Origin: Desulforamulus putei DSM 12395
GTDB taxonomy: Bacteria > Bacillota > Desulfotomaculia > Desulfotomaculales > Desulfotomaculaceae
Length of the DNA: 64,000 nt
NCBI RefSeq assembly: GCF_900129195.1
Contig: NZ_FQUY01000006.1
Span: 1 to 64,000, forward strand
Direction of reading: 5' to 3'
The notes beneath the pieces were generated by a model. The model searched no databases. It had not been told where the DNA came from and saw only the letters and a program-made list of their open reading frames with translations. Position numbers and translations under genes: made by a program. Position 1 is the first letter of the stretch. Each line of letters starts with the position of its first letter. This document shows, one piece after another, positions 43,994 to 61,922 of the stretch.

Positions 43994-44067
43994 TGTTTAT
44001 TGTGTAATTTGCCCCGGTAAAGGCAATACCATACCAGGGCGTGAACACTTCCAAAATGCCGCCTGTT

Positions 44068-44206
44068 GGTCACCTGTAGTCTTTGGCCCGGGAGTTGCCT
44101 CCCGGATTTGTTCTACGCTGCGGCCGTGACCGGGCCGGAGGGCATCCGCCGAATACATCGATACTCCCTCTCCTCGTCAACCCTGAAGGGCCAGGGTTCT
44201 GGCGCT
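44068..44206 (-). ncRNA. glmS ribozyme (GlcN6P-responsive self-cleaving riboswitch)
   Basis: The minus strand shows the conserved core in order: AGCGCCAGAACC at the cleavage site (cut between A 44206 and G 44205), GGGTTGACGAGGA (44183-44171), GTATCGA, ATTCGGCGGATGCCC, CCCGGGCCAAAGACTACAG near the 3' end. All parts of the glmS ribozyme consensus that I know are present (P1/P2 core, GACGAGG loop, P3 and P4). It lies about 130 bases upstream of glmS. GlcN6P acts as the catalytic cofactor, and cleavage destabilises the mRNA. Confidence 0.95.
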
Positions 44207-44311
44207 TGTTTTTTTATTTAGTTTTCCTGCCGTTGCACGCCGGTATCACCTCCCTTGTTCGCTCGCTAGGCGTGTATGAGGGCTACTAAGTTTATATTAT
44301 GTGGGCAGCAG

Positions 44312-47988: not shown

Positions 47989-49584
47989 TTATATCTTTTG
48001 TTCTTTCAGCAGTCCGTAGGCCATACTGTCTGCCAGGGCCTGCCAGCTGGCTTCAATGATGTTGGTGGAAACGCCCACCGTTCCCCATGTCTTTTTGCCG
48101 TTGCCGGTTTCAATTAAGACGCGGACCATGGCTTCGGTGCCGGCTTTTTCTTGCAGTACCCGAACTTTGTAATCCAGCAGCCTGAGGCCCGCCACTTCTG
48201 GAAAAAAGGTTTCCAGCGCCTTGCGCAGGGCATTGTCCAGAGCATTCACCGGGCCGTTTCCTTCGGCGGCAGTGTGTACAATTTCTTCTCCTACTTTTAA
48301 TTTGATAACAGCTTCCGAGTGGATGGGCTGCTCTTCCCTCATCTCCAGGATAAGCCGCATGCTTTGCAGTTGGAAGGGTTCCCGGTAACCGTTCAGGGCT
48401 TTTCTCAGCATCAGTTCCAGGGAGCCCTCGGCCGCCTCAAACTGGTAGCCGCGGTGCTCCAAATTTTTCAGCTGTTCCAGCACCTGCCGGCCCTCGGGGC
48501 TGTTCTTGTCTAAATGAAGTTCCTTGTATTTATACAGGATGTTGGAAATCCCCGCCAGCTCGGACATCAACACCCGCCGGGTATTGCCCACCAACGCCGG
48601 GTCCAGGTGTTCATAGGTACCCGGTTCCTTTATGAGGGCGCTGACATGGATGCCTCCCTTGTGGGCAAAGGCGCTCTCTCCCACATAGGGTTGGTTGGCC
48701 ACGGGGTTCAAATTGGCCAGTTCGTATACATAGCGGGAGAGCTCCGTCAGGTAGACCAGGTTTTCCCGGGGAATGGTGGGGCAGCCCAGTTTAAAGGTGA
48801 GGTTTGGGATGACGGAGCAGAGATTGGCGTTGCCGCACCGCTCTCCCAGCCCGTTGACGGTACCCTGCACCTGGGTTGCCCCGGCCTGCACGGCCATCAG
48901 GGAATTGGCCACCGCCATTTCCCCGTCATTGTGGGCATGGATACCCAGTTCCACCCCGGGCAGTTCTTCCCTTACCCGGGTTACGGCCTGAAAGACCTCC
49001 AGGGGCAGGCTCCCCCCGTTGGTATCGCAGAGGATTACTGCATCGGCGCCGCCCTGCACCGCCGCCTTCAGGACCTCCAGGGCATAACCGGCATTGGCTT
49101 TGTAGCCGTCAAAGAAATGCTCCCCGTCGAAAAACACCGTGAGGCCGTGGTCCTTGAGATAAGCCACAGATTCCCGCACCATACGCAAATTCTCTTCCAG
49201 AGTGGTGTTTAACGCCCGGGTCACATGAAAGTCCCATGCTTTGCCGAAAATGGTGGCTACTTTGACGCCTGCTTCCAGCAGGCGGTTCAGGTTGACATCC
49301 CGGGACGGTTCCACGCCGGGACGGCAGGTGCTGCCAAAGGCGGCAATCACCGCGTGTTTCAGGGTGTATTGTTGGATGCGGTTGAAGAATTCCATGTCTT
49401 TAGGATTGGAACCGGGCCAGCCCCCTTCAATATAATGGAAGCCCATTTCATCCAACCGCAGGGCAATTTTAATTTTATCCTCGGCCGAGAGGCTGACCCC
49501 CTCCCCCTGGGTGCCGTCCCGCAGGGTGGTATCGTAGATTTTGATCGTTGGTGCTAAATTCCCAATGTGAACCACCTCATTCAT
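47989..49584 (-). CDS. cimA: (R)-citramalate synthase
   Basis: 531 residues. It condenses acetyl-CoA with pyruvate to citramalate, the first step of the threonine-independent route to 2-oxobutyrate and isoleucine. HMGL-like TIM barrel: KIYDTTLRDGTQGEGVSLS, YIEGGWPGSNPKDMEFF, DTNGGSLPLEVF, GIHAHNDGEMAVANSLMAVQAG and GERCGNANLC. The C-terminal regulatory domain ends with TWGTVGVSTNIIEASWQALADS. The GGWPGSNPKD signature separates CimA from LeuA. The start is uncertain: the ATG at 49584 has no ribosome site, while a GAGGTGG lies just inside the frame. Last gene of the operon; it would work with LeuCD and LeuB. Confidence 0.92.
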   Translation of the reverse strand: MNEVVHIGNLAPTIKIYDTTLRDGTQGEGVSLSAEDKIKIALRLDEMGFHYIEGGWPGSNPKDMEFFNRIQQYTLKHAVIAAFGSTCRPGVEPSRDVNLNRLLEAGVKVATIFGKAWDFHVTRALNTTLEENLRMVRESVAYLKDHGLTVFFDGEHFFDGYKANAGYALEVLKAAVQGGADAVILCDTNGGSLPLEVFQAVTRVREELPGVELGIHAHNDGEMAVANSLMAVQAGATQVQGTVNGLGERCGNANLCSVIPNLTFKLGCPTIPRENLVYLTELSRYVYELANLNPVANQPYVGESAFAHKGGIHVSALIKEPGTYEHLDPALVGNTRRVLMSELAGISNILYKYKELHLDKNSPEGRQVLEQLKNLEHRGYQFEAAEGSLELMLRKALNGYREPFQLQSMRLILEMREEQPIHSEAVIKLKVGEEIVHTAAEGNGPVNALDNALRKALETFFPEVAGLRLLDYKVRVLQEKAGTEAMVRVLIETGNGKKTWGTVGVSTNIIEASWQALADSMAYGLLKEQKI

Positions 49585-49649
49585 GCTATGGGGTTTTTCT
49601 TACGTGGTGTATATCGTGCGTTTAGTATCATAACCACATCAAAGAAACT

Positions 49650-50720
49650 TCAGCCCAAAGCATTAATAATCGCTTCCGTCATTTCCACCGTACCCAGGCG
49701 GTTTTTACCGGGCTGCATGATGTCGCCGGTGCGGCAGCCTTGCTGCAGCACTCTGTCCACGGCCTGCTCGATGGCAGTTGCTTCGGCTTCCAGGCCGAAG
49801 GAGATGCGCAGCATCATGGCGGCGGACAGGATGGTGGCAATGGGGTTGGCCAGGTTCTGGCCGGCGATGTCCGGCGCGGAACCATGGATGGGCTCGTAAA
49901 GGGCCACTTCGCCGCCCAGGCTGGCCGAGGGCAGCATACCGATGGAGCCGGTGAGCTGGGAAGCCAGGTCGGTTAGGATGTCGCCGAACATATTCTCGGT
50001 CACCAGCACGTCAAACTGTTTGGGATTGCGCACCAGCTGCATGGCGCAGTTATCCACGTACATGTGGCTCAGTTCCACATCCGGGTATTCTCCGGCCAGG
50101 CTTTCCACCACCTCCCGCCACAGGCGGGAGCTTTCCAATACGTTGGCTTTATCTACGGACGTCAATTTTTTGTTTCTTTTGCGGGCCATTTCAAAGCCCA
50201 GCCGGGCCACCCGTTCCACCTCGGCGGTGGTGTACTCCAGGGTCTCCACCGCTTTCTGTCCCCCGCCGGGCAGGTCTTCCCGGCGCTTTTCCCCAAAGTA
50301 CAGCCCGCCGGTTAACTCCCGTATAATCAAGATATTCAGTCCGGACACCAGTTCTTCCTTCAGGGTGGAGGCATCGGCCAGGGCGGGATTTACCACCGCC
50401 GGGCGCAAGTTGGCATAGAGGCCCAGCTTTTTGCGCAGGGGCAGTAGGGCTCCCCGCTCGGGACGCAGTTCAGGCTCCAGGTTATCCCACTTGGGTCCGC
50501 CCACCGCCCCCAGCAAAATGGCATCGCTGTTGCGGCAGACCGCCAAAGTTTCTTCCGGCAGCGGGTGGCCGGTGGCGTCGTAAGCCGCTCCTCCGATCAT
50601 GGCTGTCTGAAATTGAAACTCCCGATTGAATTTTTCCGCCACGGCCTGCAGGACCCTGACCGCCTGGGGGACAATTTCCGGCCCGATGCCGTCACCGGGC
50701 AATAGCGCGATTTTATACAC
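49650..50720 (-). CDS. leuB: 3-isopropylmalate dehydrogenase
   Basis: 356 residues, NAD-dependent decarboxylating dehydrogenase. Motifs: [120 protein letters not shown]. It also oxidises 3-methylmalate in the citramalate route. The start GTG at 50720 overlaps leuD by eight bases. Confidence 0.97.
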
Positions 50721-51213
50721 CTTGCTTCACCCGTCCTTTTACATAGTTGATGAGTCCGCCGGCCTCAATGATTTGCCGCATGAAATCCGGGATAGGCGCC
50801 GCCTGGTACTTTTTGCCGGTGGTAAGATTGGTGATGGCGCCGGTGGCGGCGTCAACGGTGATAGTATCCCCTTCCTTCAGTTCGTCGATGATCTCGGGAC
50901 ATTCAAAAATGGGCAAGCCAATATTAAAGGCATTGCGGTAAAAAATACGGGCAAAGGATTTGGCCACCACGCAGGACACCCCGGCGGCCTTAATGGCAAT
51001 GGGAGCATGTTCCCGGGAACTGCCGCAGCCGAAATTCTTGGCTGCCACGATGATGTCGCCGGGCTGTACCCTGGAAGCAAACCGGGGATCGGCATCCTCC
51101 ATGCAGTGCCGGGCCAGTTCCGCCGGGTCGGAGCTGTTCAGATAGCGGGCGGCGATGATTAGATCGGTATCCACGTCGTTGCCGAACTTCCAGACTTTTC
51201 CCTGCAGCTTCAT
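50713..51213 (-). CDS. leuD: 3-isopropylmalate dehydratase small subunit
   Basis: 166 residues, the swivelling domain that pairs with LeuC. The segments [32 protein letters not shown] and [41 protein letters not shown] are characteristic. It has GGAGGT inside the end of leuC, and the ATG directly follows the leuC stop. Confidence 0.97.
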
Positions 51214-52476
51214 TTACAGCACCTCCTCGGGATGGGAAATACGGCCGGTCACGGCGCTGGCCGCGGTGACCGCCGGGTTGGCCAGGTACACTTCGCTCTC
51301 GGCATGGCCCATACGGCCCACAAAGTTACGGTTGGTGGTGGCGATGCAGCGCTCCCCTTTGGCCAGGATGCCCATGTGGCCGCCCAAGCAAGGGCCGCAG
51401 GTGGGTGTGCTGATAACCGCTCCGGCATCCAGGAAGATTTCAAATAAGCCTTCCCGCATGGCCTGGCGGTAAATTTCCTGGGTGCCGGGGATGATAATCA
51501 ACCTGACTCGCTTGTTGACTTTTTTCCCTTTGAGGACCTCGGCAGCCAGGCGCAGATCTTCCATACGCCCGTTGGTGCAGGAGCCGATGACGGCCTGGTC
51601 GATGTCCACCCTGCCGGCTTCACTGACCGGACGGGCATTTTCGGGCAGATGGGGGAAGGCCACCTGGGGTTCGATCTTGGTTACGTCAAATTCGTAAACT
51701 TCCGCATAGCTGGCGTCCGGGTCGCTGGTATAGAAGGTGTAGGGACGTTTGGTCCTGCCTTCCACATACTGCCGGGTGATTTCATCGGGTTCGATAATGC
51801 CGTTTTTGCCCCCGGCTTCAATGGCCATGTTGCACATGGTAAAGCGGCCGTCCATGGAGAGCTGGCGGATGGCTTCGCCGCAGAACTCCATGGCACGGTA
51901 CAGGGCGCCGTCCACACCGATTTTGCCGATGGTGTAGAGGATGAGGTCCTTGCCGCCCACCCATTTGTTTAACCGGCCGTTATAAATAAATTTCATGGAT
52001 TCCGGCACTTTAAACCAGGTTTCTCCCAAGGCCATGGCAGCGGCCAGGTCGGTGCTGCCCACGCCGGTGGCAAAGGCCCCTAGGGCGCCGTAGGTGCAGG
52101 TGTGGGAGTCCGCCCCGATGACGACGTCACCGGGTCCCACCAGCCCCTGCTCGGGCAGCAGGCAGTGCTCGATACCCATGCGGCCCACTTCAAAATAGTT
52201 GGTCAGTTCCTGGCAGTGGGCGAAGTCCCGCACCAGCTTTGCCTGTTCCGCAGATTTGATGTCCTTGTTGGGGGTGAAATGGTCGGGCACCAGGGCCACT
52301 CTTTCTTTATCCCAAACCCTCTCCAGGCCGATCTTTTGAAATTCTTTGATGGCCACCGGCGCCGTAATGTCGTTGGCCAACACCAGGTCTACCCTGGCGT
52401 TGATCAGTTCCCCGGGTTTTACGCTGTCTTTCCCTGCTGCCGCAGCCAGTATCTTTTCTGTAATTGTCATTGGCAC
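51214..52476 (-). CDS. leuC: 3-isopropylmalate dehydratase large subunit
   Basis: 420 residues of the aconitase family with a 4Fe-4S cluster. [20 protein letters not shown] at the start. Cluster cysteines lie in [13 protein letters not shown] and in [37 protein letters not shown] and [10 protein letters not shown] are also present. The start is GTG at 52476 (AGAGGTGA six bases upstream) or the ATG two codons later. It isomerises isopropylmalate and, with CimA, probably citramalate. Confidence 0.97.
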
Positions 52477-52496
52477 GGTACTTCACCTCTCTTAAT

Positions 52497-52645
52497 TAGC
52501 TGTCAGCCTTCAGCCCTCGGCCGTCGGCCTGTATTGTATAAGTACAAACCTTTTACCACTTGCAAACCTACTATTTTGTTCATCACTCTGAATTAAAAGG
52601 TAACCCCAAAGGCTGATGGCCGATGGCTGACGGCTGATGGCCAAA
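52497..52645. repeat. Heptamer-repeat inverted pair, leuA/leuC junction
   Basis: Left arm (52501-52528): TGTCAGC CTTCAGC CCTCGGC CGTCGGC. Right arm (52611-52638): GGCTGAT GGCCGAT GGCTGAC GGCTGAT, followed by GGCCAAA. Units repeat every seven bases. The right arm is roughly the reverse complement of the left, so RNA or single-stranded DNA could form a long imperfect hairpin. The gene-free loop is about 80 bases. Confidence 0.75.
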
Positions 52646-52690
52646 CAAACCATGCCGGCCTGCCTTTGAAGCAGATACTTCCCTACCGCC

Positions 52691-54208
52691 TCAACCCCTA
52701 TCATAGATCAACTTATTCACCGCATTTACATAGGCCCTGGCGGAGGCTTCCAGGATATCGGTGCTGACGCCCCGGCCGGTGTAAATTTTTTCCCGCCCGT
52801 TGCACTTGAGCTTCACGGTGACGTCACCCAGGGCGTCTTTGCCGCCGGTGATGGCATTGATGGTATAGTTGACCAGGGTGCAGGAGAGGCCGGTAATTTT
52901 GTCCACAGCTTTATAGATGGCGTCCACCGGACCGTCGCCGCAGGCGGCGTCTTCTTTCCGCTCATCGCCCACCCGCAGCCCCACGGTGGCGGTGGGCACC
53001 ACGGTAGTGCCGCTGGAGATGTGGAAATATTCCAGCGTATAGGTGTCCGGAATGTGCCGGATTTCGTCATCCACTATGGCCTGCAGGTCTTCATCGGTAA
53101 TTTCCTTCTTTTTGTCCGCCAGGGATTTGAATCTGGCAAAGGCCAGGTTCAGTTCATCATCGGTCAAGTTGTAACCCAGCTCGGCCAGGCGGTCCCGGAA
53201 GGCATGGCGGCCGGAATGTTTGCCCAGCACCAGGTTGCTGGCGGCAATGCCAACCATCTCAGGGTTCATAATTTCGTAGGTAGTTCGCTCCTTCAGCACA
53301 CCGTCCTGGTGGATGCCGGACTCGTGGGCAAAGGCGTTCTTGCCCACCACCGCCTTGTTGGGCTGCACCGGCATACCGGTTAATGAACTGACCAACCGGC
53401 TGGTCCGGTAAATTTCCCGGGTGTTAAACCCGGTGGTAAGGCCGTAACGGTCCTTGCGGGTGTACAGGCCCATGACCACCTCTTCCAGGGCGGCGTTGCC
53501 GGCCCTTTCCCCGATGCCGTTAATGGTGCCTTCCACCTGACGGGCGCCGGCGCCCACGGCGGCCAGGGAGTTGGCCACCGCCAGACCCAGGTCGTCATGG
53601 CAGTGCACGCTGACAATGACCTTTTCAATGCCGGGCGTCCTTTCCATGACCTGCTTGATAAACAGGGCGAACTCCTCGGGCATGGCATAGCCCACGGTGT
53701 CCGGTATGTTGATAACCGTGGCCCCGGCTTTAATGACTTCGCCGAAGACCCGGGCCAGATAGTCCACATCGGAGCGGGAGGCGTCCTCGGCGGAAAACTC
53801 CACATCCGAGGTGTATTTTTTAGCGTGTTTCACTGCTGCCACCGCCGCCTCCACCACCTGGTCCCGGTCCTTGCGCAATTTGTATTTCAGGTGAATGTCA
53901 GAGGTGGCTATGAAGGTATGAATACGGGCCTGCTCGGCGTCCCGCAGGGCTTCCCAGGCGCTGTCGATGTCCTTGAAGTTGGCACGGGCCAGACCTGCCA
54001 CGGTGACGCCCCGCACCTCCCTGGCCACTGCCTGAACAGCGGCAAAATCGCCGGGAGAGGTAATGGGGAAACCAGCTTCAATAATGTCCACGCCCAAGCG
54101 CGTAAGTTGCCTGGCAATTTGCAGTTTCTCATTAATATTTAAACTGACGCCCGGGGACTGCTCGCCGTCCCGCAGGGTGGTATCAAAGATGTAAACCCGG
54201 TTGCTCAA
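52691..54208 (-). CDS. leuA: 2-isopropylmalate synthase
   Basis: 505 residues. It condenses acetyl-CoA with 2-oxoisovalerate, the first leucine-specific step. [85 protein letters not shown] and [17 protein letters not shown] are family motifs. The C-terminal regulatory domain, which gives leucine feedback, is complete to VNKLIYDRG. The start is TTG at 54208 (GGGAGGG six bases upstream), not the frame start at 54226. Confidence 0.97.
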
Positions 54209-54228
54209 TCCATTCCCTCCCGTCAAAT

Positions 54229-55899
54229 CTATTCATAGTCCAAAGCGTCGCAGATATCGGCGCCTGCCAGCACCATTGGCATCACATTCTCATCGGGGTC
54301 GATGGCACAATCCACCAGCACCGGCCCCTGGTCACTGAAAGCTTCGGTCAGGGCAGTCTGCAATTCTTGATCGGTACGGACGGTGAAACCCTTAAAGCCA
54401 TAGACCCGGGCCAGGGCCGCAAAGTCCGGCACGAAGGTGAAGTCCACCGCCATGTACCGCTTGTCGCAGTAAAACTCCTGCAGTTGCCGCACCATCCCCA
54501 GCCGCCTGTTATTTAACACGAAGATTTTCAACGGCAGGCTTTGTTCCGCAGCGGTGGCCAGTTCATTGAGGGTCATTTGAAAACTGCCGTCACCGGTTAC
54601 CAGCACCACCGTTTCGTCGGGTCTGCCGAACTGGGCGCCGATGGCGCCGGGCAACCCGAATCCCATGCAGCCCAGACCGCCGGAGGTGACAAATTTCCGG
54701 GGATATTTAAAGGCAAAGTGCTGGGCCACCCACATCTGGTGCTGGCCCACATCGGTGGCCACGATGACGTCACCGCCGGTGTGACGGTAAATTTCTTCTA
54801 TTATATATTGCGGTTTCAGATACTCGCCCCCCGGCCGGTACCTGGGAGCAAATTCATGCTTCCAGTAACCCACGGTGTTAATCCAGGTGGTGTTTTGTTT
54901 TTTGTCCAACCGCACCAGCAGGGCCTCCAGGACCTTTTTGGTGTCGCCCACGATGGGTAGGTGGGATATCACGTTTTTACTGATTTCCGCCGGGTCGATG
55001 TCCACATGGATGACCCGGGCACGAGGAGCAAACCCGGCCACTCTGCCGGTGACCCGGTCGTCAAAGCGGGCGCCCAGGGTAATCAACAGGTCGCACTCGG
55101 TAACCGCCAGGTTGGCAGCTTTGTTGCCGTGCAGCCCCAGCATGCCTAGGAACAGGGGGTGGTCGCCGGGAAAGGCGCCCAGCCCCATCAGGGTGGAGAC
55201 CACCGGGGCATCGATGGTTTCTGCCAGCCACACCAGTTCTTCCGAGGCGTTGGCGTTCACCACACCGCCGCCTATGTAAATGACCGGCCGCTGGGCCTGC
55301 ATGATGAGTTTGGCTGCCTGGTTGATTTGGGCCCCGTGCCCCTTGACGGTGGGTTTGTATCCCATTAGTTTAACATCGTCGGGATATTTGAACTGGATAG
55401 GGGTCATGGCGATGTCCTTGGGCAGGTCGATCAACACCGGTCCCGGCCTGCCTGTACGGGCGATATGAAAGGCCCGCTTGACAATCATGGGCAGCATTTT
55501 GGGGTCTTTCACCAGGTAGTTATGTTTGGTAATGGGCATGGTGATACCGGTGATATCTACCTCTTGAAAGGCATCGGTCCCTACCTGAACGGTGGGAACC
55601 TGCCCGGTAATGGCCACCAGCGGAATAGAATCCATGTAGGCGTTGGCCAGGCCGGTTACCAGGTTGGTGGCGCCGGGACCGGAGGTGGCCATACAGACCC
55701 CCACCCTGCCGGTGGTCCGGGCGTAACCGCTGGCCGCATGGGCCGCCCCCTGCTCGTGCCGGGTAAGAATATGCTTGATCTTGCTGTCTTTCAGGGCATC
55801 GTACACAGGGAGGATGGCACCACCGGGATAACCAAAGATTAACTCCACACCCTCCATCTCCAGGCAGCGAACCAACGCTTCGGCACAGGTAATTTCCAA
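54229..55899 (-). CDS. ilvB: Acetolactate synthase large subunit (second copy)
   Basis: 556 residues, a TPP- and FAD-dependent enzyme making acetolactate or acetohydroxybutyrate. [58 protein letters not shown] (catalytic Glu), the TPP motif [23 protein letters not shown] followed by [11 protein letters not shown]. The start is TTG at 55899 with GGGAGGG. It is a distinct paralogue of the ilvB at 57568. No small subunit lies beside it, so it may share IlvN or work alone. Confidence 0.95.
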
Positions 55900-55917
55900 A
55901 GCATATCCCTCCCGTTT

Positions 55918-56047
55918 TGGTCGTTAGTCGTTAGTCGTTAGTCGTCGGTCGTCAGTAAAACCATTGGTCATACCGGAAGACCGACAGCCGCCAGCTAACA
56001 CCTTTATATTTTTATTCCTGACGTCAGACATCCGACGACCGACGTCT
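55918..56047. repeat. Heptamer-repeat inverted pair, ilvC/ilvB2 junction
   Basis: Left arm (55921-55955): TCGTTAG three times, then TCGTCGG TCGTCAG. Right arm (56019-56047): CTGACGTCAGACATCC and GACGACCGACGTC, again with a seven-base period and complementary in part to the left arm. A middle block (GACCGACAGCCGCCAGCTAAC) is related. The right arm reaches the ilvC stop codon. Confidence 0.75.
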
Positions 56048-57038
56048 ACTTCTTGAGCCAAGGCATCATTTTGCGAAGTTCGGCGCCAACCTTTTCAATG
56101 GGGTGCTCCTGTTCCATTTTGCGGATGGCATGGAACTGCGGCCCTTTGACCTGGTTTTCCAGCATCCAGTTGCGGGCGAAGGTGCCGTCCTGGATTTCCG
56201 CCAGCACCCGTCTCATTTCCTGCCGGGTTTCTTCGGTGATGATGCGGGGACCTACCATATAGTCGCCGTATTCAGCGGTATTGCTGACGGAGTATCTCAT
56301 GCGGGAAAGGCCTCCCTCATAGATGAGGTCCACAATTAATTTCAGCTCGTGCAGACACTCGAAGTAAGCCATTTCAGGGGCATAGCCCGCTTCCACCAGG
56401 GTTTCGAAACCGGCCTTGATGAGTTCACTGACACCGCCGCACAGGACCGCCTGCTCGCCAAAGAGGTCGGTCTCGGTTTCTTCCTTAAAGGTGGTCTCGA
56501 AAACACCGGCTTTGGTGCAGCCGATCCCCTTGGCATAGGCCAGGGCAAGGTCTTTAGCTTTACCGGTGTAGTCCTGGTAAACGGCCACCAGTCCGGGTAC
56601 ACCCTTGCCTTCAACATACATGCGCCTTACCAAATGGCCGGGGCTCTTGGGGGCCACCAGAAAGACATCCACATGCTTGGGCGGTACAATTTGGCCAAAG
56701 TGGATATTGAAACCGTGGGAGAACATCAGAGCCTTGCCTTCGGTCAGGTAGGGCTCGATTTCTTCGGCATAGACCCGTCCCTGGATTTCATCGGGGAGCA
56801 GGACCTGAATTACATCAGCCCTGGCGCAGGCTTCGGGTACAATGGCCACTTCCAGACCGTCGGCTTCGGCCCTAGCCCAGCGGGGGCTGTCTTTGCGCAG
56901 GCCCACCACCACATCCAAACCGCTATCTCGAAGGCTTTGGGCCTGGGCATGGCCCTGACTGCCGTAACCCAGCACGGCAATCTTTTTGCCTTTCAGGTAC
57001 TCCAAATTTGCATCTGCATCGTAATAAATTCTTACCAT
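56046..57038 (-). CDS. ilvC: Ketol-acid reductoisomerase
   Basis: 330 residues, the class I (short) form. It isomerises and reduces acetolactate with NADPH and Mg. [23 protein letters not shown] binds the nucleotide; [25 protein letters not shown] and [50 protein letters not shown] (catalytic acids) follow. GAGGAGG lies upstream of the ATG. It is spaced two bases from ilvN, so the two are coupled. Confidence 0.97.
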
Positions 57039-57040
57039 GT

Positions 57041-57553
57041 TTAGTCCTCCTCTTTTGTCCTGTTAATATTGGTATATTTGGCGCCCCGCAGCATGGCTAC
57101 TTTGCCGGTGCGCACCAATTCTTTGATCCCAAAGGGGCGGAGCGCCTCTTCAAAGGCATTGATTTTTTCCTGATTGCCGGTGCACTCGAGGGTCAGGTTC
57201 TTGTGGCCGTAATCTACGATATTGGCCCGGAAAATTTGGGCAATTTGCATGATTTCCCCCCTGCTGCCGGCATCGGTGTTGACCTTGATGAGAACCAGTT
57301 CCCTGTCCACATGGGGGGATGAGGTAATATCACTGATTTTGATCACATCCACCAGCTTGTGCAATTGTTTGCTGACCTGCTCCAGCACCCGCTCATCCCC
57401 CTCCACCACGATGGTCATGCGGGAGATGGCCGGGTTGTCGGTGCGGCCCACGGCCAGGCTGTCGATGTTGTATCCCCTCCGGCTGAAGAGGCCGGCCACC
57501 CGAGCCAGAACCCCCGGGCTGTTTTCCACTAATACCGCCAGTGTGTGGTACAT
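57041..57553 (-). CDS. ilvN: Acetolactate synthase small (regulatory) subunit
   Basis: 170 residues. An N-terminal ACT domain ([33 protein letters not shown]) binds valine for feedback. The C-terminal half ([41 protein letters not shown]) is the ALS_ss_C domain. The ATG at 57553 has AAAGGGG at good spacing; a GTG one codon upstream is the alternative. It lies between the first ilvB and ilvC. Confidence 0.95.
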
Positions 57554-57567
57554 CACGACACCCCTTT

Positions 57568-59229
57568 CTACCCTAACATTTCATTCAGCGCCTTACCCGG
57601 CGGCACAAAGGGTAAGACGTTTTCTTCTCTCTCAATGACAAAGTCCATTAATACCGGTTTTCTTGACTGTATTGCCGCCTGCAGGACTTCTGCAACTTCC
57701 TCTTTGCGGGTTGCCTGGTAGCCTTCGGCGCCATAGGCCTCGGCCAGTTTGACAAAGTCCGGGTTCTTTATCTCCGTATGTGAATAGCGGCGGTTGTAGA
57801 ACATCTCCTGCCACTGGCGAACCATGCCCAGGTAACCGTTATTCATGATGGCAACGTTGACCGGCAAGTCATAATCCACGGCGGTGGCCAGCTCCTGGAT
57901 GTTCATTTGAATGCTGCCGTCCCCGGCAATGTCAAAGACCGTTTCTGCCGGGCAGGCCACCTGCACGCCGATGGCGGCGGGAAAACCGTAACCCATGGTG
58001 CCCAGCCCGCCGGAAGAGATAAAGGAACGGGGCCGGGTGTAGGTGTAATAGTGAGCCGCCCACATCTGGTGCTGGCCCACTTCGGTGGTGATGCGGGCCC
58101 GCCCGCCGGTCTGCCGGTAGATTTCACGGATGACGTGCTGGGGCTTCAGATTACCGCCGTTTTCATCGAATTCAAGGGGGTATTCCTTTTTCCAGGCGGC
58201 AATTTTATCCTGCCAGGCAGACTGCAGTCTTGCTTCTATGCGCTCCAACAACTGGTTGAGCACTGTCTTGACATCCCCGGCGATGGGAATATCTACCCGA
58301 ACATTCTTCCCCAGCTCCGCCGGGTCTATGTCGATATGAATAATTTTGGCGTCGGGGGCAAAGGATTCCACCTTGCCGGTGACCCTGTCATCAAAACGCA
58401 CCCCGACGGCAATCAGCAGGTCGCACTCGCAAATGGCATAGTTGGCGTACTTGGAGCCGTGCATGCCCAGCATGCCCAGGGCCAGCGGGTGATCGCCGGG
58501 GAATCCTCCCAACCCCATCAGGGTGGTGGCCACCGGGGCCAACAGGGTCTCGGACAGTTTCCTCAGTTCCTCATGGGCGCCGGCGCTGATAATGCCGCCT
58601 CCGGCATAGATGACCGGGCGCTGACTTTCGGCGATGGCCTTGAGGGCCTGATTGACCAGTTCCTCCCGGGCTTTGCGGGGCGGATTGTAACCGGGCAGGT
58701 TCAGGTAGCCGTTGCGGTAATAGTCCATTTCCCCGGAGGAAACATCTCTGGGAACGTCAATCAGGACCGGGCCGGGGCGGCCGGTGCTGGCGATGTAAAA
58801 GGCCTCTTTGACAATCCGTCCCAGGTCCCGGATATCTTTTACGATATAGTTGTGCTTGGTGATGGGAAGGGTGATGCCGGTGATGTCCACCTCTTGAAAG
58901 GAATCCCGGCCCAGCATGAACGTCGGGACCTGACCGGTGATGGCCACCAGGGGCACCGAATCCATGTAGGCGTTGGCAATCCCCGTCACCAGGTTGGTGG
59001 CCCCGGGACCGGAGGTGGCCAGGCAAACCCCCACCCTACCGGAAGCACGGGCATACCCATCGGCGGCATGGACCGCACCCTGCTCGTGACGGGTCAAAAT
59101 GTGGCGAATATCTGCATCATAAAGGGCGTCGTAGATGGGGAGCGCCTGCCCGCCCGGGTATCCGAAAATGGTCTCGACACCCATTTCTTTTAAGCTGTCT
59201 ATTAAAATCTCCGCTCCGGTCATTTTCAT
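57568..59229 (-). CDS. ilvB: Acetolactate synthase large subunit (first copy)
   Basis: 553 residues. [64 protein letters not shown] motif [21 protein letters not shown] followed by [19 protein letters not shown] lies eight bases before the ATG. It sits next to ilvN, which suggests that this is the catalytic partner of the regulatory subunit. It differs clearly from the second copy at 54229 (for example [14 protein letters not shown] versus [14 protein letters not shown]). Confidence 0.96.
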
Positions 59230-59265: not shown

Positions 59266-59378
59266 TTGGGGGCTATTGGCTTTTGGCCTTTGAGGTATTT
59301 CTTTTGGGTCCTGTCATTTGACCCTTTGGCCAGACCCTTAAGGCTAACAACTGGACCCCATATCTCTACCCCAAAGGC
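59266..59378. repeat. Degenerate heptamer-type repeat region, ilvB/ilvD junction
   Basis: GGGGGCTATTGGCTTTTGGCCTTTG (59268-59292) and a right part with ACCCTTTGGCC and ACCCCAAAGGCTAGC (up to about 59382) resemble the arms at the leuA/leuC junction (ACCCCAAAGGCTGATGGC). A core GGTATTTCTT-NN-GGGTC at 59294-59310 recurs at 63391-63407. Confidence 0.5.
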
Positions 59379-61036
59379 TAGCTAAGCACTGCTCCTTTTC
59401 CGGCGGAAGATACCTGTTTGGCGTAGCGGGCCAGGTATCCCGTGGTGACTTTGGGTACGGGAGGCTGCCAGGCGGCCAGGCGCCGGTTGATTTCCGCCTG
59501 GTCCAGCTTGACCTCCAGCCGGTAGTTGGGGATATCAATCTCCACAATGTCCCCGTCCTGAAGGACGGCGATAAGACCCCCTTCCGCTGCTTCCGGGGAA
59601 ATATGTCCGATGGAAGCCCCCCTGGATGCGCCGGAAAAACGCCCGTCGGTTAAGAGGGCCACTTCTTTGTCCAGCCCCATCCCCGCCAGTACCGAGGTAG
59701 GCGCCAGCATTTCCCGCATGCCCGGACCGCCTTTGGGGCCCTCGTAGCGAATTACCACCACGTCACCGGGTTTAATTTGGCCTCCCATGATGGCTGCAAT
59801 GGCAGCCTCTTCCCCGTCGAACACTCTGGCCGGGCCGGTATGTTGCAGCATTTCCGGCGCCACGGCCGCTCTCTTCACCACCGCTCCGTCCGGCGCCAGA
59901 TTGCCGCGCAGGATGGCCAGCCCGCCGGTGGAACTGTAGGGTTCTTTGACACTGCGGATGACGTTGCGATCTTTGATTTTGGCCTGTTCCAACAATTGGC
60001 CAACTGTCAAGCCACTGACAGTTTTAATGTTTGGATTAATCAGACCATTGACGTACAGTTCTTTCATCACCGCTTGGATGCCGCCGGCTGCGTAAAGGTC
60101 CTGTATATGGTACTGCCCGGCCGGGCTCAGCTTGCACAGGTGCGGCGTTTTCTCACTGATTTCGTTGATTAAATCCAGGTTTAGCTCAATACCCGCTTCA
60201 CGGGCGATAGCGGGCAGGTGCAGTACCGTATTGGTGGAACAGCCCAGGGCCATATCCACGGCCAACCCGTTGCGGAAGTTCTCCATCGTTAAAATATCCC
60301 TGGGTCTTAGATTTTCTTGGACCAGGGCCACTGCCCTCATGCCGGCCGCTTTGGCCAGCCTGCGTCTGGCGGCGGTGACCGCTGGAACGGTGCCGTTGCC
60401 CGGCAGGGCCATGCCCAGCGCTTCGGTCAAGCAGTTCATGCTGTTGGCGGTAAACATGCCGGCACAGGAACCGCAGCCGGGGCAGGCATTGTCTTCCAGT
60501 TCAGCCAGTTCCTCACGGGTCATGCGGCCTACCTGCACAGCCCCCACCGCCTCAAACATTTGCGTTACCGAAACATCCTGGTCCCGAAATTTACCTGCCA
60601 GCATGGGGCCGCCGCTGACCACAATAGTCGGGATGTTCAAACGAGCGGCAGCCATCAGCATACCGGGAACCACCTTGTCACAGTTGGGGATCAGGACCAA
60701 CCCGTCGAAGGGGTGAGCCTGGGCCATAATTTCAATGGAATCGGCAATGATCTCCCGGCTGGCCAGGGAGTAGCGCATGCCGGGGTGCCCCATGGCAATG
60801 CCGTCGCAGACGGCAATGGCCGGAAATTCCACCGGCGTCCCGCCGGCCATGCGAACGCCTGCCTTGACGGCCTCGGCGATATCTTTCAAGTGTATATGTC
60901 CGGGAACAATCTCGTTAAAGGAGTTCACAACCCCGATCATGGGTCGGGATAATTCTTCATCCAGCAGTCCCAGCGCTTTAAACAAACTGCGGTGCGGCGC
61001 CCTCTCCAGCCCTTTTTTCATTGCATCGCTGCGCAT
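59378..61036 (-). CDS. ilvD: Dihydroxy-acid dehydratase
   Basis: 552 residues, an iron-sulfur dehydratase of valine and isoleucine synthesis. Start [22 protein letters not shown], then [59 protein letters not shown] (cluster cysteines), [25 protein letters not shown] and [28 protein letters not shown] six bases before the ATG. First structural gene after the tandem T-box leader. Confidence 0.97.
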
Positions 61037-61062: not shown

Positions 61063-61372
61063 CAAAAAACCTCTCGTTCCCCGGCATCAATGCCAGGGAC
61101 GAGAGGTTTATCCTTCCGCGGTACCACCCTGATTGCTCTTAGCAAGAGCCACTCATGCACAAAATACATACATACCCTGTGCCTTTTGATAACGGGTTCT
61201 GAAAACCCGGCCCCAATTACTCGTGTGGATCACACTTTCACGAGGGCAGCTCCCGGGTGAGACCAGACTGTCAGTGGCGCCGGCTTCCACCCAACCCGGC
61301 TCTCTGTGGCCCTGTTCAGACTGTTGTCCCGATCATGGCTGTTTTCTGTACCTTACTAAATAAATTACTAGT
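61063..61372 (-). ncRNA. T-box riboswitch, leucine specifier (CTC)
   Basis: The minus strand shows stem I with ACAGAGAGCCGGGTTGGGTGG (AG bulge region), the specifier loop context GGT-CTC-ACCCGGGAGCTGCC (CTC at 61261-61259), the T-box sequence AGGGTGGTACCGCG (61130-61117) whose TGGT fits a tRNA with an A discriminator, and a terminator, CCTCTCGT...ACGAGAGG then six T (61109-61063). The codon is assigned by alignment with the neighbouring T-box, where the same position is ATC. Uncharged tRNA-Leu would favour antitermination into ilvD. Confidence 0.93.
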
Positions 61373-61373
61373 A

Positions 61374-61402
61374 AGTATAGTAGTTTCGCCAAGTACTGTC
61401 AA
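61374..61402 (-). promoter_or_regulatory. Promoter of the Leu T-box module
   Basis: On the minus strand TTGACA (61402-61397), a 17-base spacer and TATACT (61379-61374). It starts a second transcript just upstream of the Leu T-box. Confidence 0.85.
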
Positions 61403-61445
61403 GAAGTTCTGTGTTATGATCGGGTTAAATTATTCAGGGGCTGCA

Positions 61446-61735
61446 ACAAAAAACCCCTCGTTCCCGGCAACATGCCAGGGACGAGAGGTAATCCTTCCGC
61501 GGTACCACCCTGATTGCTCAACAAAGAGCCGCTTTTGCACAGCATACAGACGTATTTGTGCGGTTTGATAACGGGTGCCAAACCCGGCCCAACCTACTTG
61601 CGTGATGCTTTCGGAAAGGCAGCTCCGGGGTGATGTAGGCAATCTGTCATGTGGCGCCGGCTTCCACCTGCCCCGGCTCTCTGTGGCCCTGTATCAGATG
61701 CCCGGTCCCCTTCAACGCTGTTTTGGATATGTTAC
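61446..61735 (-). ncRNA. T-box riboswitch, isoleucine specifier (ATC)
   Basis: Same layout as its neighbour: AGAGCCGGGGCAGGTGGAAGC in stem I, CCTAC-ATC-ACCCCGGAGCTGCC in the specifier loop (ATC at 61634-61632), T-box AGGGTGGTACCGCG (61511-61498) and a terminator (61490-61446, CCTCTCGT paired with ACGAGGGG, then six T). It is the upstream, promoter-distal copy with respect to ilvD. The two modules are clearly duplicates that diverged at the codon. Confidence 0.93.
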
Positions 61736-61740
61736 TATTA

Positions 61741-61769
61741 AGTATAATTTTTTAGTCAACCACTGTCAA
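61741..61769 (-). promoter_or_regulatory. Promoter of the Ile T-box module
   Basis: On the minus strand TTGACA (61769-61764), a 17-base spacer and TATACT (61746-61741), the same hexamers and spacing as the promoter of the Leu module. Confidence 0.85.
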
Positions 61770-61891: not shown

Positions 61892-61922
61892 AAAAGTTTT
61901 ACCCCGGTAAACCCGGGGTAAA
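61892..61922 (-). terminator. Terminator after argH
   Basis: On the minus strand TTTACCCCGG (61922-61913) pairs with CCGGGGTAAA (61907-61898), followed by ACTTTTGC. It lies ten bases after the argH stop. Confidence 0.85.

Follow-up and report, generated by a model that had tools for sequence, protein, structure and literature searches.

Ahead of its branched-chain amino-acid operon, Desulforamulus putei carries an isoleucine and then a leucine T-box, each with its own promoter, and the short region between the two modules holds a complement to the K-turn and lower stem I of the inner, leucine T-box. At the level of sequence, this complementarity has been shown to be conserved and co-varying among the Desulforamulus genomes that have the pair. 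Tandem T-boxes on such operons are already known; the inter-module complement to the inner T-box is new here.

Two T-box modules before the operon

The window, which is the whole stretch of DNA analysed (64,000 nt), contains, on the minus strand between 61036 and 47989, an operon in the order ilvD-ilvB-ilvN-ilvC-ilvB-leuA-leuC-leuD-leuB-cimA, its genes identified with NCBIfam models. cimA was assigned by TIGR00977, and as CimA supplies the citramalate pathway for isoleucine, the operon serves isoleucine, valine and leucine, in keeping with the earlier note's view that both sensed amino acids come from one pathway. The two modules upstream of ilvD occupy 61063-61769, the range that the earlier note had given, and comprise the following features:

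61741-61769, minus strand: outer promoter P1, TTGACA-17-TATACT, kept in 7/7 tandem genomes
61474-61724, minus strand: outer T-box T1, isoleucine (RF00230, 91.0 bits)
61632-61634, minus strand: T1 specifier ATC (Ile), from the covariance-model alignment, identical in 7 genomes
61448-61488, minus strand: T1 intrinsic terminator with T-run
61412-61430, minus strand: conserved block ATTTAACCCGATCATAACA between the T1 terminator and P2
61416-61424, minus strand: CCCGATCAT, core of the anti-stem-I element, inside block ATTTAACCCGATCATAACA
61374-61402, minus strand: inner promoter P2, TTGACA-17-TATACT, kept in 7/7 tandem genomes
61092-61345, minus strand: inner T-box T2, leucine (RF00230, 99.4 bits)
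61328-61336, minus strand: ATGATCGGG, T2 K-turn and 5' strand of lower stem I, target of the anti-stem-I element
61259-61261, minus strand: T2 specifier CTC (Leu), from the covariance-model alignment, identical in 7 genomes
61064-61107, minus strand: T2 intrinsic terminator with T-run
59378-61036, minus strand: ilvD, first gene of the operon (TIGR00110)
47989-59229, minus strand: ilvB, ilvN, ilvC, second ilvB, leuA, leuC, leuD, leuB and cimA (NCBIfam equivalogs)

Both T-boxes align with the full length of RF00230 (model positions 1-219/219), T2 exceeding the gathering score of 93 and T1 falling just below it (E 2.6e-20), and in both alignments the specifier triplet lies directly 5' of ACC. The T-box sequence AGGGTGGTACCGCGG is common to the two, and both antiterminator bulges are UGGU. 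Each promoter-like site matches the consensus at 11/12 positions; shuffled sequence yields 1.1 such sites on average, but both are conserved in all seven tandem genomes. On the 3' side of each T-box lies a GC-rich hairpin followed by a T-run, with predicted energies of -26.7 and -31.6 kcal/mol. The earlier note's description of two complete minus-strand T-boxes, each with its own promoter and terminator, and with ATC as the outer specifier and CTC as the one beside ilvD, thus holds in every part. The two-T-box anatomy is almost certainly real, and chance is excluded as the origin of the two-module layout.

Genome-wide there are 15 full-length T-box matches, and T1-T2 is the sole closely spaced full-length pair. 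The two specifiers differ, so this is not a tandem for a single tRNA, and they correspond to isoleucine and leucine, amino acids made by the regulated operon. A tRNA-Leu(GAG) is present in the genome, with a discriminator A that fits the UGGU bulge; tRNA-Ile(GAU) was not found in the 65-contig draft assembly. Genes for tRNA-Ile(GAU) often lie inside rRNA operons, which draft assemblies collapse. Beside the T-boxes, no match to an RF00442-like aptamer was found in the window.

Two further RNA features lie nearby. Between argH and P1, a GC-rich hairpin with T-runs (61898-61922) could terminate argH and insulate P1. Past the end of the operon, a glmS ribozyme (RF00234, 94 bits) is located on the minus strand at 44066-44217, downstream of a phosphoglucosamine mutase-like gene.

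Relatives and origin of the pair

The isoleucine-then-leucine tandem is found in 7/9 Desulforamulus genomes searched, always as ATC followed by CTC, and always with both promoters kept. The other two (G002 and G007) have one T-box only, a leucine one, in each case behind a promoter judged by eye to be P1-like. In a maximum-likelihood tree, the T1s and T2s of the genus form one clade (support 99/96), and the T2s group with the single leucine T-boxes of G002 and G007 in another (100/97). From this topology, the pair very probably arose by local duplication with a switch of specifier: the ancestor of the genus would have duplicated a promoter and isoleucine T-box ahead of ilv-leu-cimA, with isoleucine retained by the outer copy and leucine specificity acquired by the inner one. 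For G002 and G007, the simplest reading of the single T-box is that T1 was lost. These singles (L150 in G002, L049 in G007) resemble P1 fused to the body of T2, the outcome expected had T1 and P2 been lost by recombination between the two T-boxes. In G002, an incomplete genome, ilvD is split across two frames (L150/L151, G002:C25:43223-44874), possibly through an assembly error.

Another family of the same order (f7) also has T-box series in which every T-box has its own promoter, with isoleucine-leucine pairs (G045, G046), isoleucine-valine pairs preceding ilvD (L152 in G047, L081 in G048) and a triple isoleucine-valine-leucine series (G051). These evolved separately from the Desulforamulus pair. 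Other single T-boxes of the order, among the cases examined, are mostly isoleucine-specific, with valine in two, and several are followed by an RF00442 match. In many related genomes, ilvD is preceded by an RF00442 (Guanidine-I/ykkC) match, which frequently follows a T-box (L073-L075, L077, L079, L080, L083, L085, L087, L089, L090, L093-L095, L100). Because ykkC RNAs at such genes have been assigned to ppGpp (subtype 2a; PMC5912903), the "guanidine" label given to these operons in PMC12452182 is probably a mislabel.

A complement to inner stem I

In the seven tandem genomes, 39-50 nt separate the T1 T-run from the -35 box of P2, and in all seven just one segment of the T2 leader, the K-turn and lower stem I, finds its complement in this region: CCCGATCAT against ATGATCGGG here, and TTCGTTCAA against TTGAACGGG for the other clade. 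Lying upstream of P2 and downstream of the T1 terminator, the element is carried only by P1 RNAs that extend past T1. An alignment-free scan, taking every 9-nt window over the first ~50 nt of the T2 leader, peaked once, at the K-turn and lower stem I, with a mean z of 3.8 across the seven genomes and no genome below 2.3, and stayed at ~0 elsewhere; no peak emerged when the T1 leader was scanned in the same way against the region upstream of it (maximum 0.5). Each spacer matches its own T2 (p 0.002-0.014 in the seven genomes), with no match to its own T1 (p 0.10-0.71) or to the T2 of the other clade (p 0.07-0.40). The single-T-box relatives G002 and G007 have no complement (p 0.34 and 0.90, respectively), and neither do 39 control T-boxes of the same family (mean z -0.09). 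Given that last value and the T1 leader without signal, anti-leader sequence as a general habit of T-box promoters was rejected. RNAduplex energies permit very large loops and were set aside.

Counted over the seven genomes, 62/63 cells are paired and two pairs have changed on both sides, and the covariation score is 0.47 compared with 0.27 for shuffles (0/500 reaching it); the register between clades was set by hand for both figures, and the seven genomes represent only two clades, so that few independent changes lie behind the pairing. Several sequence changes in the helix retain the pair as G-U. The pairing is probably real at the RNA level. The anti-stem-I helix is predicted with a probability of at least 0.99 in 6/7 P1 RNAs, leaving lower stem I at ~0, in a folding model that ignores K-turn and loop-E geometry and hence undervalues stem I, which makes the prediction an indication only. 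The helix is also predicted at the stage when stem I still lacks its 3' strand. In G006, which has one mismatch, the predicted pairing is just 0.12. Shuffled spacers, too, lower predicted stem I.

The T-box series of the other family show no consistent anti-stem-I signal. In one of them (L081, G048), there is a 9-nt complementarity between the inner-promoter spacer CCCCCTTCAT and ATGAAGGGG in the inner leader (shuffle p 0.005), and a weaker match of the same sort occurs in G046.

Regulatory logic of the series

The earlier note had proposed a graded AND/OR logic, in which transcripts from the inner promoter answer to tRNA-Leu alone and those from the outer promoter require both tRNAs to be uncharged. 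The first part is supported, as P2 RNAs carry only the leucine T-box; the AND step for P1 RNAs is doubtful, since it assumes that T2 works alike on P1 and P2 RNAs, and the conserved complement to T2 stem I, an element absent from that account, is predicted to displace that stem on P1 RNAs.

In the mechanism that we propose instead, transcription from P2 would continue past T2 in the presence of uncharged tRNA-Leu(GAG), and P1 RNAs would stop at T1 unless tRNA-Ile is uncharged. On P1 RNAs that pass T1, the anti-stem-I element would pair with the T2 K-turn and lower stem I while the 3' strand of that stem has yet to be transcribed, so that the codon-reading part of T2 would fail to form and these transcripts would be blind to leucine. 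Given the pairing, it is fairly likely that the leucine sensor is disabled on P1 RNAs. A possible route past T2 is offered by the terminators: the 3' arm of the T1 terminator, once freed, may capture the 5' arm of the T2 terminator and could, on a kinetic argument, let the polymerase pass T2 without tRNA-Leu. Before the T2 3' arm exists, the T1 3' arm is predicted to hold the T2 5' arm with P of at least 0.99 in all seven genomes, a cross-pairing that is automatic between the terminator arms of homologous T-boxes. At equilibrium, the T2 terminator is predicted with P ~1 on both P1 and P2 RNAs and folding does not show bypass; the bypass would therefore have to be kinetic. The output would be an OR logic, with starvation for either amino acid turning the operon on. 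The leucine-blind coupling of P1 RNAs, leaving the OR outcome aside, is plausible, if not quite probable. The complete scheme, with T2 active on P2 RNAs and unfolded on P1 RNAs and the series acting as an Ile-or-Leu OR gate, must be regarded as rather unlikely when taken as a whole.

The main rival is an AND logic of independent modules, possible if somewhat doubtful, in which P1 RNAs would require tRNA-Ile and tRNA-Leu to be uncharged together, and P2 RNAs tRNA-Leu alone; leucine would then gate everything, and isoleucine shortage would merely add promoter strength. T1 and T2 both look complete, the T2 terminator is predicted on both RNAs, and related families place a T-box and an RF00442 match before the same operon. 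Serial control of this kind also has precedents in the T-box and ppGpp riboswitch tandems described as AND gates (Sherlock 2018, PMC5912903) and in the combination of CodY with a leucine T-box in B. subtilis (PMC12452182). However, independent modules leave unaccounted a conserved complement to T2 stem I that is present on P1 RNAs only, and isoleucine shortage alone would not induce an operon with isoleucine among its products.

The inverted repeat around P2 might alternatively be a feature of the DNA, such as two regulator sites, rather than an RNA helix, and in clade A the conserved 19-nt block does reach beyond the complementary core. This is quite improbable: block ATTTAACCCGATCATAACA has a single site in the D. 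putei genome at up to 3 mismatches, and the three clade relatives possessing it each have just one site at up to 2; G-U pairs, relevant only in RNA, are retained in several of the departures; and CodY is encoded, yet no conserved CodY-like box lies near P1 or P2. A widespread operator was rejected, as the 19-nt block is single-copy in the genome, and so was CodY as the isoleucine sensor, no conserved box being found at either promoter.

Least probable is a lock, in which a disabled T2 always terminates P1 RNAs, so that P1-T1 makes nothing but short RNAs or else interferes with P2. In its favour, predictions retain the T2 terminator (P ~1) with stem I lost, and in both single-T-box relatives it is T1 that has gone and the leucine T-box that remains, as fits a dispensable T1. 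Against it, seven genomes have preserved the promoter, specifier, T-box sequence and terminator of the outer module, which would be odd if that module had no output. As an always-stopping module would hardly be kept, there is a slight lean towards P1 RNAs bypassing T2 rather than locking at it.

The older T-box surveys of Vitreschak 2008 and Gutierrez-Preciado 2009 may list mixed specifiers, so the mixed-specifier arrangement is possibly not new. Among the papers on tandem T-boxes consulted, no mention of an anti-stem-I element was found. The trp operon and thrS tandems are likewise made of head-to-tail T-boxes with terminators; their repeats sense one tRNA species, whereas the Desulforamulus pair differs in specifier. 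The B. subtilis ilv-leu leader shares stem I, specifier loop, T-box sequence, antiterminator, terminator, CUC specifier and operon with the inner module, but combines one T-box with CodY, where D. putei has an extra outer promoter with an isoleucine T-box. That tandem T-boxes exist, as the earlier note stated, agrees with PMC12452182, which reports them, two or three before ilv/leu genes, as enriched on branched-chain amino-acid operons of Bacillota and proposes a requirement for two uncharged tRNAs; differing specifiers, a promoter between the T-boxes and an anti-stem-I element are not described in the sections consulted. The T-box and ppGpp AND gate (PMC5912903) similarly combines two serial riboswitches ahead of branched-chain amino-acid genes, but here tRNA is the ligand of both elements, and a separate promoter precedes each.

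A 2020 review called the mode of action of tandem T-boxes unknown (PMC7583486). With two amino acids, two promoters and a defined 9-nt element, this locus offers a clean test of how they act, and natural relatives are available for comparison, including those in which the outer T-box has been lost, the triple isoleucine-valine-leucine series, and mixed series without the element. If the proposed coupling is true, the logic of serial riboswitches would not be readable from their order alone.
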